Shown: positions 7,834 to 15,568 of the stretch, piece by piece | How the letters are laid out: the number at the start of each line of letters is the position of its first letter | How positions within the stretch are numbered: position 1 is the first letter of the stretch | NCBI RefSeq assembly: GCF_022662575.1 | Contig: NZ_JALBFU010000001.1 | Location: forward strand, 119,188-183,187 | Length of the DNA stretch: 64,000 nucleotides | Source: Luteimonas aquatica | GTDB taxonomy: Bacteria > Pseudomonadota > Gammaproteobacteria > Xanthomonadales > Xanthomonadaceae | Direction: 5' to 3' | Translations under genes and position numbers: made by a program | Notes under the pieces: generated by a model | What the model was told of the DNA's origin: nothing | Database searches by the model: none | The model's input: only the letters and a program-made list of their open reading frames with translations

Positions 7834-9315
7834 GTGATGTCTGCCGACATGACCCCGCAAATCCGAACCCTTGCCGACGTTGCGCCGCTGGCGCCCGAGC
7901 TGACGGTGATCCTGGGCGCCTTCGCCCTGCTGATGCTGGACCTGTTCCTCGACGACAGGCGCCGCATCGTCACCCAGACCCTGGCCATCGGCGTGCTGCT
8001 GGCCGCGGCCGCGCTGGTGTTCACCGGCACGGGCGCGCAGGGAACGGAAGGTCCGATCAGCGTCCTCAACGGCATGTTCGTGCGCGACACCGCCGCCGAC
8101 GTGCTCAAGCTGACGATCCTGCTGGTCAGCGCGGCCGCGCTCGCCTACGGCTGGACCTTCCTGCGCGAGCGCGGACTGTTCAAGGGCGAGATCCCGGTGC
8201 TGATGCTGTTCGCGGTCGCGGGCATGATGCTGCTGGTCTCGGCCGGCAACCTCACCATGGTCTACCTCGGCCTCGAGCTGCTGGCGCTCAGTTCCTACGC
8301 GCTGGTCGCCATCGACCGCGACAGCCCGCTGTCCTCGGAGGCGGCGATGAAGTACTTCGTGCTCGGCGCGCTGGCCTCGGGCATGCTGCTGTACGGCATG
8401 TCGCTGGTCTACGGGGCGACCCGCACGCTCGACCTGGGCGGCATCAACGCCGCGGCGGCCGCCATCGACGGTCCCGACCGCCTGCTGCTGCTCGCCGGCG
8501 CCGTGTTTCTGGTGGTCGGCATCGCCTTCAAGTTCGGCGCCGCGCCGTTCCACATGTGGCTGCCGGACACCTACCAGGGCGCGCCGACCCCGATCACGCT
8601 GTTCATCGGCTCCGCGCCGAAACTGGCCGCGTTCGGCATGACCTACCGCCTGCTCGAGTCGGGCGTCGGCCCGCTCGGCGAGTACTGGCACCTGCTGCTG
8701 GCCGGGCTGGCGGCGCTGTCGCTGGCGATCGGCAACCTGCTGGCGATCGCGCAGACCAACCTCAAGCGCATGCTGGCGTACTCGACGGTCTCGCACGTCG
8801 GCTTCCTGTTCCTGGGCCTGGCCAGCGGCACCGCGCAGGGCTATGCCTCGGCGATGTTCTACGCGATCAGCTACGCGATCATGTCGGCCGCGGCGTTCGG
8901 CGCCATCGTGCTGCTGTCGCGGCGCGGCTTCGAGGCCGACCGCATCGACGACTTCAAGGGCCTGAACGCGCGCAACCCGTGGATGGCCGGCCTGGTGCTG
9001 TGCATCATGGCTTCGCTGGCCGGCGTGCCGCCGTTCCTGGGCTTCTGGGCCAAGCTGGCGGTGCTGCGCGCCGCGCTGCAGGGCGACCTGCTGTGGCTGG
9101 CGATCGTCGCCATCGTGTTCGCGGTGATCGGCGCGTTCTACTACCTGCGCGTGATCAAGGTGATGTACTTCGACGAACCGGCAGGCGAACCGCTGCAGGT
9201 GCGGCCCAACCGTCCGCTGCGCACGATGTTCGCGGTCAACGCGCTGGCGCTGCTGGCGCTGGGCCTGGCGTGGAGCCCGGTGATGGCGTGGTGCCAGAAG
9301 GCGTTCGCCGCCTGA
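7834..9315 (+). CDS. nuoN: NADH-quinone oxidoreductase subunit N
   Basis: A 493-residue antiporter-like subunit, last gene of the nuo operon. 'YLGLELLALSSYALVA' contains the conserved helix 5 glutamate, and 'FKFGAAPFHMWLPDTYQGAPT' the TM7 lysine/WLPD motif. GTG 7834 and ATG 7837 are adjacent. AGGA at 7821-7824 lies nine bases before the GTG and twelve before the ATG, so GTG is favoured slightly. A strong inverted repeat just downstream probably ends the operon. Confidence 0.95.
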   Translation: MMSADMTPQIRTLADVAPLAPELTVILGAFALLMLDLFLDDRRRIVTQTLAIGVLLAAAALVFTGTGAQGTEGPISVLNGMFVRDTAADVLKLTILLVSAAALAYGWTFLRERGLFKGEIPVLMLFAVAGMMLLVSAGNLTMVYLGLELLALSSYALVAIDRDSPLSSEAAMKYFVLGALASGMLLYGMSLVYGATRTLDLGGINAAAAAIDGPDRLLLLAGAVFLVVGIAFKFGAAPFHMWLPDTYQGAPTPITLFIGSAPKLAAFGMTYRLLESGVGPLGEYWHLLLAGLAALSLAIGNLLAIAQTNLKRMLAYSTVSHVGFLFLGLASGTAQGYASAMFYAISYAIMSAAAFGAIVLLSRRGFEADRIDDFKGLNARNPWMAGLVLCIMASLAGVPPFLGFWAKLAVLRAALQGDLLWLAIVAIVFAVIGAFYYLRVIKVMYFDEPAGEPLQVRPNRPLRTMFAVNALALLALGLAWSPVMAWCQKAFAA

Positions 9316-9642: not shown

Positions 9643-9822
9643 ATGAAGAAAGCGATCAAGAGCTCGAAGAGCGGCGCATGCAACGCTTCGAAGCAGGAGG
9701 CCAGCGACAAGCTGAACCAGCTGATCGGCCAGATTCAGAAGCAGGTTCCGAAGGGATCCGCACTCGATGCCAAGGGCGGCGGTCAGTGGACCACGTGCAT
9801 CCGCATCTATTGCTCGCCTTGA
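9643..9822 (+). CDS. RiPP precursor peptide 1 (lanthipeptide-like), 59 aa
   Basis: A 59-residue peptide starting at ATG 9643 after a strong GAGGAGAG site at 9631-9638; the ATG at 9640 is too close to that site. The Lys/Ser-rich N-terminus is followed by a helical leader-like block with the motif KLNQLIGQIQKQVPK and LDAKGG, and the tail ends TTCIRIYCSP. The leader block and the C-terminal RIYC are shared with the second precursor at 9978-10157, while the residues between differ, as expected of a conserved leader with a variable core. Thr/Cys in the tail are potential dehydration or thioether sites. No homologue was searched; the precursor call rests on size, paralogy and the dehydratase downstream. 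Confidence 0.8.
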   Translation: MKKAIKSSKSGACNASKQEASDKLNQLIGQIQKQVPKGSALDAKGGGQWTTCIRIYCSP

Positions 9823-9840
9823 TCTCGCTTTGAAACACCT

Positions 9841-9904
9841 CTCTCCCGCCATGCGGGGGAGAGGACGAGCGTACGAGACGGCGTCCGTCCGGAACGGGAC
9901 GGAC
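9841..9904 (+). promoter_or_regulatory. Two hairpins between the precursor genes
   Basis: CTCTCCCGC/GCGGGGGAGAG around CAT (9841-9863) and a perfect eight-base stem GTCCGTCC/GGACGGAC with a six-base loop (9883-9904) fill the 155-base gap between the two precursor genes. Neither has a T tract. They could stabilise or partly attenuate the transcript so that precursors are made in excess over enzymes. Confidence 0.45.
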
Positions 9905-9977
9905 CACCTGCCGGACGAGCGGATCGCCTGACCCGCATCCGAACCGCGTCCGGCCCTCAACCGAAACGGAGGATGGT

Positions 9978-10157
9978 ATGAGAAAAGCGAAAGCGATCTC
10001 CCGCGACCACGCAAGCGACGTTTCCGGTCGTCAGGCCAACGAGAAGCTGAACCGGCTGATCGGGCAGATCCAGAAGCAGATGCCGAAAGCCGCCGGCCTG
10101 GATGCGCAGGGCGCGGCAGCGGCCACGTCCTGCAGAACGCGGATCTATTGCGTTTGA
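9978..10157 (+). CDS. RiPP precursor peptide 2 (lanthipeptide-like), 59 aa
   Basis: The second 59-residue peptide, exactly the length of precursor 1, starts at ATG 9978 five bases after GGAGG (9968-9972). It shares the block KLNRLIGQIQKQMPK and LDAQG, then diverges and ends TSCRTRIYCV. Compared with precursor 1, the two cysteines are one residue further apart (CX5C against CX4C), while Thr/Ser-x-Cys order and RIYC are kept. The pair behaves as a leader/core family feeding the enzymes encoded just downstream. It overlaps no other credible gene. Confidence 0.8.
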   Translation: MRKAKAISRDHASDVSGRQANEKLNRLIGQIQKQMPKAAGLDAQGAAAATSCRTRIYCV

Positions 10158-10239
10158 GTCCGCGCGCCATGCGCCCGTCCGACGCCTCGCGCGCGGGCGG
10201 GCGCTTTCCGCCGTTCGCATCGGGCCGGCTCCCGCGGCG

Positions 10240-11511
10240 ATGAGCGGACCCGGGTCGGCCGGTCGTCGATTCGATTGGGACGGTTTCGTCGCGCGCCGCT
10301 GGGCGCGCGTGCCGGCGCGCCTCGCATCGCCCGAATGGCCCGGGCTGCGCGATCGGGCGTTTCGCCTGGCGGTGGAAATCAGCAAGCCGTTCAGGCGCGG
10401 AATGCGCTTCTTCACCTTGCCCAACGTGCGCTTCTTCGCCGGCGGCGAGGAGATACGCGCGCCCGGCGCGCTGCTGCCCGGCGTCAGGGATCGCGACTTG
10501 CCGGGATATCTGCAAAGGCTTGCGGCGCGCCTGCCGAACGACCTAGCCCGGGTGGAGATCGAACAGCCGCTGATGGCCGATGCCGCCGCCTGGGACGAAG
10601 TCAGGGGCTTCCTCGCGGGATTGTGCGATCGCGTGGGCTGTCCGCTGTCGCCGATCGTCGCCAGCCTCGTTCTCGGCCGCTTCGATCGCCACCATGCGCA
10701 CGCGAATGAATCGGTACTGCTGGTGCCCTTGCAGGGCGAAATCCGCGTCCGCTTCGAGGACGCCGTCGTGCCCGCGCGATTCGGCAATGCAATCTCGCTC
10801 GCGTGCCGGCCCGGGCGGATGCTGTACTGGCCGGCGGGCTGCCGGGTGCGGGAGCGCTGCGCGGAGGGCGGCCTGGCCCTGCGGCTGGTGATTCCGCACG
10901 ATCCGGCTGCGCCGCTGGAGGAAGTGCGCAAGCTGTTCGCGACGATGCGCCAGGCGGAGATCCATCCGCGCGACGAAACGCCCTATCTGCCTTTTCCGCC
11001 CCGCAAGCGCGCGAACGGCGCCGTGGCGGTGCCCGCAGTTCTGGCGCGCATGCATCGCGCCCTGGCGCAAGCCGAGGCCGTGGAACAGGCCGAACAGGCT
11101 CTGCGCGTGCAGTGGGCCAGCCGTGTCAGCGCGTGCGCCCTGGAGCCCGTGCCCGGCTTCGTCGCCTGCGACGCGCTGCAGCCGCGGGATCGCGTGCGCA
11201 TGGCGGACGGCGCGCGCATCGTGATGATGCCGATGGGGGCGGGCGTGGCGGTCTGGGCCGTCAATGGCTACGCCTTCGCGGTGCAGGACACGCCGGCCTC
11301 GGAGCTGTTGCGGCGGCGATTGACGGAGGGCGGCGTGCACACGGTGGCCGAGCTATGCGGTTCCGGCGTGTCCGGCAGCGATGAGGACGCGGCGCTCGCG
11401 CTTCTGCACCGGTTGTGCGGCGCGCGCGCGTTGCGACGGACGGGCGCGCGCGAATCCGCCGGGCGAAGCCGAACGCCGCCCGCATCCGTTCCCGGCAGCG
11501 CGCGCGGTTGA
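10240..11511 (+). CDS. Degenerate JmjC/cupin-like protein of the RiPP locus
   Basis: A 423-residue protein with the double-stranded beta-helix pattern of JmjC/ROXA-type cupins: 'SVLLVPLQGEIRVRF' and 'GRMLYWPAG' align with the same elements in the protein at 13996-15282. Where that paralogue has the HxD pair (HKD) this one has HAN (residues 154-156), and where it has the distal His this one has Val (about residue 203). The Fe(II) facial triad therefore appears lost and a catalytic role is unlikely. A C-terminal winged-helix-like region (about 330-410) ends the protein. It may act as a leader-binding or scaffold partner. ATG 10240 is chosen because upstream in-frame codons run into low-quality sequence. 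Confidence 0.75.
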   Translation: MSGPGSAGRRFDWDGFVARRWARVPARLASPEWPGLRDRAFRLAVEISKPFRRGMRFFTLPNVRFFAGGEEIRAPGALLPGVRDRDLPGYLQRLAARLPNDLARVEIEQPLMADAAAWDEVRGFLAGLCDRVGCPLSPIVASLVLGRFDRHHAHANESVLLVPLQGEIRVRFEDAVVPARFGNAISLACRPGRMLYWPAGCRVRERCAEGGLALRLVIPHDPAAPLEEVRKLFATMRQAEIHPRDETPYLPFPPRKRANGAVAVPAVLARMHRALAQAEAVEQAEQALRVQWASRVSACALEPVPGFVACDALQPRDRVRMADGARIVMMPMGAGVAVWAVNGYAFAVQDTPASELLRRRLTEGGVHTVAELCGSGVSGSDEDAALALLHRLCGARALRRTGARESAGRSRTPPASVPGSARG

Positions 11512-11515
11512 GCCC

Positions 11516-13999
11516 TTGAGTTCGCGCCACGGCGAGCATGGAGGTCCGATCCCGTCCCGCGCCTACGCGGCCGAGCAGGCGCTGCTGGTGCTGGCCAGGC
11601 CGGACAAGCGCAGGCCGCGTCCGGCGTTGCCGGCGGAAACCGAAAAACTGCTGCAAGGCCTCGCGCGCGGCCGCGGCGGCGGCCTGTTCCCGGCCGTGGC
11701 GCGCCTGTGCCGCGAAGGCGTGATCGCCCGCGCGCGGTCGTTGGGCGGGCGCGAGGATGCCGAACGGCTGGCCGCGACGTTGGCGAGTCCTGCATTCGTG
11801 CCCTTCGTGGAGATGATCGAGTCCCTGGGGCCGTGGTGCCGTCGCGTGCAGGATGCGTATCGCGACCTGTTTGGCCCCGGACTGGTCGGACTGGAGAATG
11901 CCGATCTGTTCGCGCCGTTGATCGGCGAGGCGTTCCAGTCCTGCGCCGAGGGCGGCGAGGCCCGCGCCGGCGAACTCGAGATCCTGCGCGGCGGCTTCCA
12001 GGCGTTCTTCGAGCGATTCGCGAAACGGTTGCGGCGCGACCTTGCCGGCGGCGTGTTCGAGAACGGCGCCGTCGATGGTCCCGTCGTCGCGCTCTGGGCC
12101 AGCCCGAGCGAGACCCACAATGGCCAGCAGCGCGTCCTGCGCCTGCGCTTCGCCGGTGGCGCCGCCATCGCCTACAAGCCGCGCCCGGCCGACGGCGAGC
12201 GCATCTTCATGGCTGCGCGCGAAAGCGGCGCGCCGGTCTCGCTGTTCGAATGGATCAACGCCTTGCCACCCGCTTCCGGCCCGGTGCAGCTGCCGACGCT
12301 GCGGGTCTGGCAGGGGAACGGGCGCGACCGCTGGACCTACAGCTGGCAGGAATGGATCGACCGGCCGCCGCAATGGGGAACCTTGCGCGATTCGCCGCGC
12401 CTGCGGCTGACGGGAACGCGTCTGGCGCCGCGCGAGGCGGCCGCTTATTGGACGCGCGCCGGCGCCCTGGCCGCCGCCTGCTACGGATTCGGGATTTCCG
12501 ATCTGGGCGAGGGCAATCTGCTGGCCGGCGTGCGGCGGGAAGCGAAGGTGCCGATGCCGTACATCGTCGATCTGGAGGTCTTTTCCTGTCCGCTGCGGCG
12601 CCTGAGCGGCACCGGCCTGATCGAGAAGGGGCGGGGCGGCTTCCATCATGTCGGCTTCGAGTCCGAGCCGCGCTGGTGCAGCGCGGAAGGGCCGCCGGTG
12701 GCGTTCCTGGAATCGCGCGGCGGCGCGCTGCGCCTGCATCGGATCGCCACGCCCTGGGCGAGGAGCGAAACCCGCACGGTCGTCGGCGATACGCTCGGCA
12801 ACACCGGCTATGGGGCGTATCTGCTGCCCATGCTGCGCGGCATGTTCGACCTGTGGACCGGCGTCAACCTGCACCGCGATGCGTTGTTGCGCCATCTGCG
12901 CGCGCTGGTCCGCGGCCGGCGCGTGCGCGTGCTCGCCAAGTTCACCGCCAGCTACGCGCGCGAACTCGAGCGGCGGCGCGGCGGCAAGGGCGTGCCGCGA
13001 CCAGGGCGTGCGGCCGCGCGCTTCAGCCGCGAGGAAGCGTTGCAGATGGATCGGCTGGACGTGCCGTATTTTTTCGCGCCGGCCGGCGGCGGCGCTCTCT
13101 CATGGCTCGATCCGGACGCGCCGGCGACGGCTCGCGCCGCGGGACGGCAGCCGACGGAAACGGCTTCCATGCTTCCCGATCCCGCCGTCCTCGCCGGACG
13201 GAATCTCGAATTCGTCGACCTGGCGGTGCTGATCAAGGACGCGATCGAGTACATCCATCCGGATCTGGAGCGCGCCGTTCCCGGCCTGCTCAGGCACGGC
13301 GACGGCTACCGCATGCGCGATGCCGCGCTCGGCGTGGAGCTTCGCATCGAGCGTGCCGGCGCCGGGAGCGCCAGCTTCGACTGGCCGCAGGCGGGACGGA
13401 GATTGACCTTCTCCTGGAACCGCCGCAACGTCCGGCTCACGCCGGAGCCGTTGCCGCCGCCGGTCGCGACGCGGAGCGACGTCAGGCGGCAGCTGTTGCG
13501 CCTGCGCGCCGTCGACGTGCCGCTGCGCGCGGTCTGGGCGGCAGGCGCGTTCCGCGATCGCACGCTGGGGCGGCATCTCGACGCGCTGACGGCCGCGGGC
13601 CTGCAATGGCTCGCGCAAGTGATCGGCGAGCACGGATGGCCGACGCGGGCGATGGTGGGCAAGCGCGCCTGCGAGTTCGCCGCGCAGTTGATCCAGCATG
13701 CGGAGCAGGAGGAGGCCGGCTTGCAGGGGAGATGCCTGCGGCTGATGACCGAGGCCGCGGCCAGGGGCGAGGTGCCGATGCGCCATGTCGCCTACCTGAC
13801 CGATGCCTGGCGGCTGAACACCGGGCGCAAGCAGCTCTACGGCAGCAAGTTCGTCAAGCGCCGCGGGCGGCTGGTGCCGTGCCCGATCGCACGGCCACGA
13901 CAGGTGGATGCGCGCCGGCGGCAGATGGGGTTGCCGCCTCTGGCCGAGTACCAGCGCGCCTTGCAGCGCCTGCACGACGGGGAGAGGACGCAGCAATGA
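11516..13999 (+). CDS. LanM-type dehydratase domain protein without LanC, DUF6624-like C-terminus
   Basis: About 827 residues from TTG 11516 (start uncertain; ATG 11381 would overlap the upstream gene by 131 bases). The first 500 residues match the lanthipeptide-synthetase dehydratase fold (DUF4135): SETHNGQQ (E199, H201), IAYKPRP (K221), DLGEGNLLAG (D329, G331, N334), IVDLE (D352) and RVLAKFT (R471, T477). In LanM these elements phosphorylate Ser/Thr and eliminate phosphate. Two positions depart from usual: Glu for the first Asp of the DxH pair, and Gly for the His of DLHxEN. No LanC cyclase zinc motifs follow; residues about 680-780 instead resemble DUF6624 (HGWP, VG, QHAEQEE, YLTD, QLYGSKF). 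Stop and next start overlap (ATGA). Confidence 0.8.
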   Translation: MSSRHGEHGGPIPSRAYAAEQALLVLARPDKRRPRPALPAETEKLLQGLARGRGGGLFPAVARLCREGVIARARSLGGREDAERLAATLASPAFVPFVEMIESLGPWCRRVQDAYRDLFGPGLVGLENADLFAPLIGEAFQSCAEGGEARAGELEILRGGFQAFFERFAKRLRRDLAGGVFENGAVDGPVVALWASPSETHNGQQRVLRLRFAGGAAIAYKPRPADGERIFMAARESGAPVSLFEWINALPPASGPVQLPTLRVWQGNGRDRWTYSWQEWIDRPPQWGTLRDSPRLRLTGTRLAPREAAAYWTRAGALAAACYGFGISDLGEGNLLAGVRREAKVPMPYIVDLEVFSCPLRRLSGTGLIEKGRGGFHHVGFESEPRWCSAEGPPVAFLESRGGALRLHRIATPWARSETRTVVGDTLGNTGYGAYLLPMLRGMFDLWTGVNLHRDALLRHLRALVRGRRVRVLAKFTASYARELERRRGGKGVPRPGRAAARFSREEALQMDRLDVPYFFAPAGGGALSWLDPDAPATARAAGRQPTETASMLPDPAVLAGRNLEFVDLAVLIKDAIEYIHPDLERAVPGLLRHGDGYRMRDAALGVELRIERAGAGSASFDWPQAGRRLTFSWNRRNVRLTPEPLPPPVATRSDVRRQLLRLRAVDVPLRAVWAAGAFRDRTLGRHLDALTAAGLQWLAQVIGEHGWPTRAMVGKRACEFAAQLIQHAEQEEAGLQGRCLRLMTEAAARGEVPMRHVAYLTDAWRLNTGRKQLYGSKFVKRRGRLVPCPIARPRQVDARRRQMGLPPLAEYQRALQRLHDGERTQQ

Positions 14000-15282
14000 C
14001 GGCGCGGCACTACGCGGTGGAACGCAGGCTGGACTGGAAACGGTTCGCCGAGCGCTACTGGGACCGGCGGCCCGTGCTGTTCCGGGGCTCGGGCGCGACG
14101 CCGTATCGCGCCGAGGACGCCTTGCGCGCGGCGGCGCGCGCGGCCGTCATGCCGGCCGTCGACCCTTCGGCGCCGGCGATCCGTTTCGCGCTGGGCCGGC
14201 GTCTGCAGCCGGGAGGCGCGGCCTGGGCGCCGCGCCCGGAAGAGCGCTCCTTCGGCGACTACGCGCGCCGCGTCGCGGGCGACGCCAGGTACGCGCTGAT
14301 CGTGAATTATCTCCATCATTTTTCGCCGGAGGTCTGGCGGGCGGGGAGCGGCTTCTTCCATGGCCTGTGGCGGCAGGTCGGCCTGCCGCTTTCCGGGGCG
14401 ATCACCACGCTGTTCCACGGCAGCTACGAGAGCACGCCGGTCGGCGTGCACAAGGACCGCTTCGCCACGTTCATGTTCCCGCTGCAGGGGCGCAAGCGGA
14501 TGCGCTTCTGGGCGCGGCGCCCCTGGGACGACGCGGTGACGACCCGGCTGGATTACGGCGACTATCTCCAGGCGTCCTTCGCGATCGACGTCGAGCCGGG
14601 CGACATCCTGTACTGGCCGGCGAGCTACTACCACGTCGGCGAAACGACCGATGCGGATTACGCGACCAGCGTCAACGTCGGCATTCCCAGGGACGAGCAC
14701 AAGCTGCTCTACGACCTGGAACAGTTCGCCCAGGCGATGCCGGCGCGCAATGCGACGCGCCGGCGCACGAGGCGACCGGAGGCGTTCGGCGCCGGCGGCG
14801 CGGCCTTGCCGGCCGGCATGGCGTCGGCGTGGGCGCGCTTTCGCCAGGACCTGGGCGAGGAGCGTCTGCGCACGGCCGTCGCCGCCGGCTATCTGCAGCT
14901 GCTGACCGGGTGCGGATTCGTTCCGGCGCCGCCTGCGCAGCGGGGGCGCGGGCCCGGCGATGGCGAATTGCTGCGGCTGCGGGACCGCCGCTTCCCGATC
15001 GCGTGGACGGATCTGGCGGCCGATCGCGTGCTGTGCGGCGCGGGCGGCCACGTGCGCGGCATACTGGCCGGCGGCGAGCGGGTGGCCGGCCTGTTCCGCG
15101 ACTTGAATTCGACCGGGCCGGCGAGCGTGGCCGAACTGCTGGCGCCCTTCGCGGATGCGCCCGGCGCCGGGCGCGCGGCGCGCGGCATGCCCTGGCTGCC
15201 GGCCGATCGCCAGGGGATGCGCGCCTTGCTCGGATGGCTGGCCGCGACCGGCGCGGTGGAGCGCATGCCGCGCTCCCGATAG
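13996..15282 (+). CDS. JmjC/cupin Fe(II)/2-oxoglutarate-type oxygenase of the RiPP locus
   Basis: A 428-residue protein with a JmjC-like cupin: 'FHGSYESTPVGVHKDRF' supplies H152 and D154, and 'YWPASYYHVGE' supplies H213, together a complete 2-His-1-Asp iron site. ROXA-like ribosomal oxygenases share this layout, including a C-terminal winged-helix-like region. Position directly after the dehydratase with ATGA overlap argues instead for peptide modification, for example beta-hydroxylation of a core or leader residue. Reaction and substrate are inference. It is the last gene of the locus; no transporter or protease follows. Confidence 0.8.
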   Translation: MTARHYAVERRLDWKRFAERYWDRRPVLFRGSGATPYRAEDALRAAARAAVMPAVDPSAPAIRFALGRRLQPGGAAWAPRPEERSFGDYARRVAGDARYALIVNYLHHFSPEVWRAGSGFFHGLWRQVGLPLSGAITTLFHGSYESTPVGVHKDRFATFMFPLQGRKRMRFWARRPWDDAVTTRLDYGDYLQASFAIDVEPGDILYWPASYYHVGETTDADYATSVNVGIPRDEHKLLYDLEQFAQAMPARNATRRRTRRPEAFGAGGAALPAGMASAWARFRQDLGEERLRTAVAAGYLQLLTGCGFVPAPPAQRGRGPGDGELLRLRDRRFPIAWTDLAADRVLCGAGGHVRGILAGGERVAGLFRDLNSTGPASVAELLAPFADAPGAGRAARGMPWLPADRQGMRALLGWLAATGAVERMPRSR

Positions 15283-15491: not shown

Positions 15492-15568
15492 TGCGGGGTG
15501 GAGCAGTCTGGCAGCTCGTCGGGCTCATAACCCGAAGGTCGCAGGTTCAAATCCTGCCCCCGCTACCA
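15492..15568 (+). tRNA. metY: tRNA-fMet (CAT), initiator
   Basis: A 77-base cloverleaf including the encoded 3' CCA. The anticodon loop CTCATAA lies on a stem with three consecutive G-C pairs (GGG/CCC), and positions 1 and 72 are mismatched (T-T here). Both are hallmarks of bacterial initiator tRNA. GGTTCAAATCC forms the T arm. Its location upstream of rimP-nusA-infB matches the metY position known in Escherichia coli. Confidence 0.95.

Follow-up and report, generated by a model that had tools for sequence, protein, structure and literature searches.

Class II lanthipeptides are made by LanM enzymes such as CylM and LicM2, which normally fuse a dehydratase of the DUF4135 family to a LanC cyclase. 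LahM1 and LahM2 of Lachnospiraceae are reportedly unusual class II enzymes that dehydrate without the usual cyclisation. A further departure is CcaM, the LanMbC enzyme of the dehydrazole carnazolamide, which according to PMC10676384 acts only on Ser preceding an azole. In PMC13097080, genes for DUF6624 proteins are often found next to those of graspetide groups 18, 20, 23, and 42, and the family is flagged there as one that may comprise biosynthetic enzymes of a class still to be discovered. In a stretch of 64,000 nucleotides from Luteimonas aquatica (assembly GCF_022662575.1, contig NZ_JALBFU010000001.1, positions 119,188 to 183,187, hereafter the window), we noted a five-gene locus in which two precursor genes, A1 and A2, are followed by three tightly linked enzyme genes, J1, M, and J2 (Table 1), and in which M joins a LanM-type dehydratase to DUF6624 and has no LanC domain. 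The locus probably makes a small, lanthipeptide-like ribosomally synthesized and post-translationally modified peptide (RiPP). The reading that we favor, in which M dehydrates the precursor, a distal cysteine closes a thioether and J1/J2 hydroxylate an arginine, would as a whole have an even chance of being right, its chemistry being deduced from sequence.

The first-pass annotation of the window had described two 59-residue paralogous peptides and three tightly linked genes, and its coordinates and anatomy were correct. It had also read M as a LanM dehydratase without LanC motifs whose C-terminus looks like DUF6624, and the profile searches agree on each of these points. Window M matches DUF4135 in Pfam with 60.5 bits (cut-off 29; residues 163-356, inside the first 500) and DUF6624 with 54.4 bits (cut-off 27), and it gives no LANC_like match. 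Both domains are matched in all 18 M homologues at E<=0.1, and LANC_like in none of the 18 at the same threshold. M has no LanC domain, so it cannot cyclise by one. The NCBIfam model of the LanM subfamily, TIGR03897, is matched by 17/18 M homologues at E<=0.01 (best E 4.4e-14). An AlphaFold model of M, with a predicted local distance difference test score (pLDDT) of 91.4, aligns to LicM2 and CylM only within residues 36-637, the two alignments stopping at residues 616 and 637 of 827.

Counterparts of most, but not all, catalytic residues of CylM are kept in M. Taking residue roles from PMC4550811 on CylM, and setting the equivalence by LanM motif (CylM itself is not in the sequence alignment), we found that the counterparts of Lys274, Asp347, Asn352, and Asp364, which serve phosphorylation, are invariant in all 18 M, as are those of the elimination residues His254 and Arg506; the counterpart of Thr512, also an elimination residue, is a Thr in 15 M and a Ser in the other 3. 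Many DUF6624 residues are likewise invariant across the 18 M. The YGTQ motif of DUF6624 becomes [YF]G[TS]K, with Lys778 in 17/17 M rows vs Gln in 24/24 other DUF6624 rows, these being rows from the host family with no graspetide-linked proteins among them. Left out of this alignment of M, LanM, and DUF6624 were L092, the LanM of L110, whose predicted start looked truncated, and some DUF6624 loci.

The same gene set recurs in 18 genomes, 8 of Luteimonas and 10 of two other genera (2 of g14 and 8 of g16). A full-length M is found in 8/52 Luteimonas genomes and in 14/395 sampled genomes of the family (4 Luteimonas and the 10 from g14/g16), and no further full-length M turned up, at the thresholds used, among 250 sampled genomes of the order, 369 of the class, and 398 of the phylum. 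In the 7 other Luteimonas loci, 1-3 precursors are followed by J1, M, and J2 as in the window; the ten g14/g16 loci have the order precursors-M-J1-J2. Two genes are incomplete among the 18 loci: J2 of L092 ends at the contig end, and J2 of L090 is in pieces in two frames. The J1 gene of L034:4852-6080 (G006) appears frameshifted, with two tblastn pieces in different frames, from sequencing error or decay.

Precursors adjoin the enzymes in all 18 loci, and matches to A1 by tblastn are present in each of the 7 other Luteimonas loci. Searching both strands of the 18 loci for [ST]C-x(3,5)-YC-x(1,3)-end, we found 33 precursor matches with 22 distinct cores, all of them 5' of the enzymes and on the enzyme strand, so the conservation of precursors with enzymes that the first-pass annotation called for is seen in relatives. 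Every one of the 33 C-termini reads [ST]-C, then 3-4 residues including Arg, then Y-C and 1-2 residues, giving conserved cores of nine or ten residues. The residue before the first Cys is Thr in 22 and Ser in 11, and the residue before Tyr-Cys is Ile in 25, Leu in 4, Val in 3, and Gln in 1. The two invariant cysteines stand 5-6 positions apart with an Arg always between them; the last 45 residues of the 33 precursors hold no further Cys, and none of the cores listed holds a His. Two or three different cores occur in 13/18 loci. The core is constant across genera, whereas to the eye most of the leader in Luteimonas bears no relation to that in g14/g16, a combination that had been missed. The pattern had 0 matches in 50 copies of the 64 kb window made by plain base shuffling, but since it was written only after several precursors had been seen, its recurrence across loci weighs more than the absence of shuffle matches.

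The annotation had spoken of two JmjC-type cupins, which is true by homology, but J1 is without the metal triad, a second feature that had escaped notice. J2 matches JmjC_2 (PF08007) with 31.9 bits (cut-off 22), and this family is matched by 16/16 J2 at E<=1 (best 3.9e-9). J1 has no Pfam match; the J1 and J2 families are homologous by hhalign (99.9%, E 7.7e-37, 383 columns). The Fe(II) triad is kept in 16/16 aligned J2, whereas in J1 the first triad His is missing in 16/16 and the complete triad is found in 0/16, with a lone His at the second triad position (L031, L032) or the third (L088, L090). These counts leave out J1 of L034 and of L092, the latter a near copy of L091, and the incomplete J2 of L090 and L092. 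Because J1 lacks a complete metal triad, it is probably a pseudo-oxygenase, and J2 would be the only oxygenase of the pair, with J1 as its partner.

Among proteins of solved structure, those that J2 matches best are the arginine hydroxylases of ribosomal protein L16, a weak match over the whole sequence (E 2.3e-5), followed by a cupin 4 family protein (1e-4). Since Arg is invariant and His absent in the cores, Arg is favored as the target. We think it quite probable from these relationships that J2 hydroxylates the precursor, and consider Arg as the site to be evenly balanced against other residues. J2 is found at E<1e-150 in 8/282 family genomes, all 8 of them M carriers, and five weaker relatives occur elsewhere (E 1e-25 to 3e-39). 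As a check for a RiPP recognition element (RRE), the C-termini of J1 and J2 were compared with 7 PqqD-like sequences and gave hhalign probabilities of 9.9% and 0.8%, other parts of the two proteins giving 0.0-0.3% as controls; one of 16 J2 matches ROXA-like_wH (E 0.0037). A survey (PMC12710340) notes RRE-like domains fused to JmjC (PF08007), with the closest bacterial relatives in RiPP-like contexts.

Putting these together, the first-pass suggestion of a dehydrated, possibly hydroxylated peptide still appears to be the best reading of the sequence. We propose that M would phosphorylate the invariant Ser/Thr before the first Cys and eliminate the phosphate to give dehydroalanine (Dha) or dehydrobutyrine (Dhb), and that the second invariant Cys, that of Tyr-Cys, would add to it and close a (methyl)lanthionine ring of seven or eight residues. 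Closure would be aided by DUF6624 in the place of LanC, or be spontaneous, and the first Cys would remain free or serve otherwise. J2 would hydroxylate the invariant Arg in the manner of RoxA/YcfD, whose target is ribosomal protein L16, with J1 as an inactive partner or a leader-binding subunit, and leader removal and export would fall to genes elsewhere. That a thioether ring forms at all could go either way, and a part for DUF6624 in closing it is tentative, at somewhat less than even chances. A bolder version is that DUF6624 is a new ring- or heterocycle-forming domain replacing LanC, with the LanM base rewired and an obligate active/inactive JmjC pair acting on an in-ring Arg, making this a new RiPP class; we think this rather unlikely.

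A number of observations weigh against the proposed pathway, beginning with M. Only profile positions 17-173 of the 378 of DUF4135, the first half, are matched by window M, and on TIGR03897 it scores 31.6 bits, far below the cut-off of 304. With 13 canonical LanM rows in its input alignment, the AlphaFold model is biased towards LanM in the kinase part, and a model from 8 M rows alone was poor (pLDDT 54.4), its top Foldseek match still being CylM at a non-significant E of 0.45. The LanM motifs that the first-pass annotation listed in M are present, but the DxH His is Gly in the window protein, a loss that it had missed. Across the 18 M, the counterpart of CylM His349 in this motif is a Gly in 16 and a Tyr in the other 2, and that of Asp252 is Glu in 18/18; both residues are kept in 13/13 canonical LanM rows. 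With these changes M may be slow, need a pre-modified core, or only phosphorylate. In PMC4550811, the variant CylM-H349A gave only little dehydration in a short assay and in co-expression; it reached almost full modification after 10 h, vs 30 min for the wild type, so loss of the His slows the enzyme and need not abolish activity, and an active M is plausible. We consider M likely to be a working dehydratase.

The DUF6624 domain is common outside the LanM fusion, 90/104 matching family genomes matching over the DUF6624 part only, and to our knowledge it has no known activity. For J2, the L16-hydroxylase match adds up two stretches, neither of which passes by itself (0.75, 0.51), and the histidyl hydroxylase NO66 comes after the arginine hydroxylases (E 0.002); the J1 profile has no solved relative below E 0.2. 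As for the chemistry, we know of no tendency for lanthionine rings to have Ser/Thr immediately before Cys, and a ring through the distal Cys leaves the proximal Cys unexplained, making the S/T-C pair the least explained feature of the locus. Stand-alone DUF6624 genes occur, for example, near RNase E/pseudouridine synthase genes (L036, L038, L043, and others).

A further point against the pathway as proposed is that LANC_like is found in 16/18 carrier genomes, for the most part within LanM-like frames of 900-1100 aa, which could then give help in trans. At E<=0.001 there is no LanC in G138 (97% complete) or in G280, which at 75% complete is too incomplete to weigh much. The sole DUF4135 match in G138 is M, and both matches in G280 lie inside the frame of M. 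Judging from its gene content, LanC appears dispensable in at least one nearly complete genome, G138. The host genome has four canonical LanM besides M (contigs C51, C24, C13, C49) and a further LANC_like domain at C24:304044-305018, in a 936-aa frame with no DUF4135 match listed, which is possibly of class III/IV. DUF4135 occurs in only 8/99 family genomes, 3 of them carriers, vs LanC in 16/18 carriers, a difference that may reflect kinship only.

Other readings of the same genes have to be weighed. In the one that survives best, M dehydrates, the cysteines form a disulfide and no thioether is made, with DUF6624 binding the substrate or shaping the dehydratase. The invariant pair of cysteines, the only ones near the C-terminus, would suit a disulfide, but by general chemistry Dhb/Dha beside free thiols tends to react, and the many DUF6624 residues invariant in all 18 M also argue against it. 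A precedent is found in PMC10676384, where CcaM needs its class III cyclase-like domain for dehydration and its product has no lanthionine rings. We regard this reading as unlikely. Less likely still is that M is only a peptide kinase, or a degenerate pseudo-enzyme scaffolding J1/J2, the product being phosphorylated or merely hydroxylated. This would account for the lost DxH His and the change of Asp252 to Glu in every M, but the other phosphorylation and elimination counterparts are kept in all 18, including those of Arg506 and of Thr512 (Thr or Ser), which act in elimination in CylM. It is also quite improbable, a little more so, that the peptides stay inside the cell, as regulators or as small proteins that are modified there, and are not secreted: the locus has no transporter or protease, as the first-pass annotation remarked and as holds inside the locus, and its Luteimonas site is flanked by nuoN and a tRNA gene, but it is accessory (8/52 Luteimonas), and the two or three different cores in 13/18 loci are natural-product-like. 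With no YcaO match among the five locus proteins, and neither DUF6624 nor JmjC proteins being known to form azoles, we place last, as most improbable, a route in which the Cys after Ser/Thr first becomes an azoline/azole-like ring through DUF6624 or J1/J2 and M then dehydrates the Ser/Thr, a route that would suit the changed active site of M and that we retain because the strict S/T-C pair, adjacent in 33/33 cores, recalls CcaM, with the same spacing as the Ser-azole rule in PMC10676384.

The gene set for which we favor dehydration, thioether closure, and hydroxylation behaves as an accessory addition to its site. All 8 Luteimonas loci lie directly 3' of nuoN, as the gene upstream of the window locus is tentatively named. 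We examined 30 of 52 nuoN matches, 4 from carriers and 26 from non-carriers; in 24/26 non-carrier loci a tRNA-Met follows nuoN after 63-297 bp, and of the remaining two, one has a tRNA-Gln and one none (the scan kept only the last tRNA found). These empty nuoN/tRNA-Met sites indicate that the gene set is a discrete accessory unit. Within the locus, bounded by nuoN and tRNA-Met, there is no LanT, other transporter, or protease, and Pfam found no LanT-type transporter or peptidase among 20 predicted flanking proteins from 6/17 relative loci (L029, L030, L083, L084 with one protein, L089, and L091). Type VI secretion genes VipA/VipB lie beyond J2 in L030:1441-3634 (G001), where L029 has rimP/nusA and five other loci have homologues, and the site may therefore have acquired other accessory genes. 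In L089:886-1965 (G138), the opposite strand carries a gene for a 2OG-Fe(II) oxygenase (2OG-FeII_Oxy_3), ~4 kb 5' of the precursor.

Table 1. Features of the locus and its borders, numbered by position in the window.
Feature	Position	Strand	Description
Left border of accessory insertion	stop at 9315		presumed nuoN gene
Precursor A1	9643..9822	+	59 aa, C-terminus ...WTTCIRIYCSP; purine-rich sequence upstream; core pattern
A1 core segment TCIRIYCSP	9793..9819	+	fits [ST]C-x(3,5)-YC-x(1,3)-end
12-bp hairpin 3' of A1	9838..9864	+	computed fold; no T-run
Precursor A2	9978..10157	+	59 aa, C-terminus ...ATSCRTRIYCV; paralogue of A1; core pattern
A2 core segment SCRTRIYCV	10128..10154	+	core pattern match
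GC-rich hairpin 3' of A2	10171..10204	+	computed fold
J1	10240..11511	+	JmjC_2-type cupin homologue without complete Fe(II) triad; C-terminal domain homologous to that of J2
M	11516..13999	+	LanM-type dehydratase fused to DUF6624, without LanC
M residues 36-616	11621..13363	+	lipid-kinase-fold dehydratase part
M residues 690-817	13583..13966	+	DUF6624 domain occupying the place of LanC
J2	13996..15282	+	JmjC_2 oxygenase; HxD...H triad His152, Asp154, His213 intact
tRNA-Met	15492..15568	+	right border of accessory insertion

The genes of the window locus are closely packed. The most likely start of M is a TTG, 4 bases after the J1 stop, with a TTG at a similar place in the M of four relatives, and the stop of M overlaps the ATG of J2. 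Folding of 9823-9880, which includes the hairpin 3' of A1, gives -28.9 kcal/mol (z -4.33, 0/200 shuffles as good), and this hairpin may act as an attenuator or stabilise the precursor message from its 3' side. The fold of 10158-10215 at the A2 side has -35.7 kcal/mol and is weaker against its shuffles than that of A1 (z -2.56, 4/200 as good), and the segment 3' of J2 shows no advantage over its shuffles (z +1.29).

JmjC enzymes related to J2 stand beside other kinds of gene in the family. In L195:272-9840 (G269, g14), one of the five weaker J2 relatives, which keeps an HxD...H site, is the neighbour of a class III lanthipeptide synthetase (RamC_N, Pkinase, LANC_like), in a cluster that also has an ATP-binding cassette (ABC) transporter, a MacB-like permease, and a small open reading frame with what we take to be a class III-like leader. 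Another of the five, a J2-like piece near a contig end, L196:1-3104 (G111, g14), adjoins a radical S-adenosylmethionine (SAM) gene and may mark a further RiPP locus that includes a JmjC enzyme. In g16, three loci (L192, L193, L194) share a recurring trio of predicted genes, a JmjC_2-like protein (425-445 aa), a protein of 263-284 aa with a weak FkbM methyltransferase match in L194, and a protein of 737-738 aa without a Pfam match in L194, the one locus of the three that was scanned.

If the favored pathway is true, LanC is not the only domain with which a class II dehydratase can be paired, DUF6624 gains a defined peptide as candidate substrate, and the RiPP toolbox gains a JmjC oxygenase whose paralogous partner looks inactive. 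The locus may point to a route to cyclic peptides that is new, and few genes are needed. Were the new-class version true, the DUF6624 proteins in graspetide clusters could be peptide-modifying enzymes too. Among the matches listed in openly licensed papers, we did not find this gene combination described, and DUF6624 appeared in one of them, PMC13097080.

Compared with known systems, J2 resembles the JmjC_2 hydroxylases RoxA/YcfD in its PF08007 match above cut-off, its triad, and its best solved relatives, but it is paired with the paralogue J1, which lacks the full triad, and is encoded alongside RiPP precursors. It is also like BipG, the JmjC ornithine hydroxylase of biphenomycin, in being a JmjC oxygenase for a RiPP core residue; BipG targets Orn and works alongside multinuclear non-heme iron-dependent oxidative (MNIO) and radical SAM enzymes, with no LanM-type enzyme in the gene list given in the excerpts of PMC12707348. 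In the graspetide groups of PMC13097080, DUF6624 accompanies a graspetide synthetase, whereas in M it forms one protein with a LanM dehydratase. M is like the LanMbC enzymes of dehydrazoles, of which PMC10676384 gives CcaM, in that both join a divergent DUF4135 to a non-classical C-terminal domain, and CcaM dehydrates Ser before a heterocycle where here S/T stands before an invariant Cys; the C-terminal domain of M is DUF6624, and the YcaO/dehydrogenase pair of dehydrazoles is missing, there being no YcaO in the locus. With CylM and LicM2, M has in common the dehydratase fold of DUF4135 and almost every catalytic residue, and the locus shares with their LanM systems small precursors with Ser/Thr and Cys adjoining the enzyme gene. 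M differs from them in having DUF6624 for LanC and DxG/DxY for DxH, in a locus without LanT and with a score far below the NCBIfam cut-off. Lacking a LanC domain, a LanM score above the cut-off, and a transporter in the locus, the pathway falls outside class II, yet it would work like the class II lanthipeptide route.

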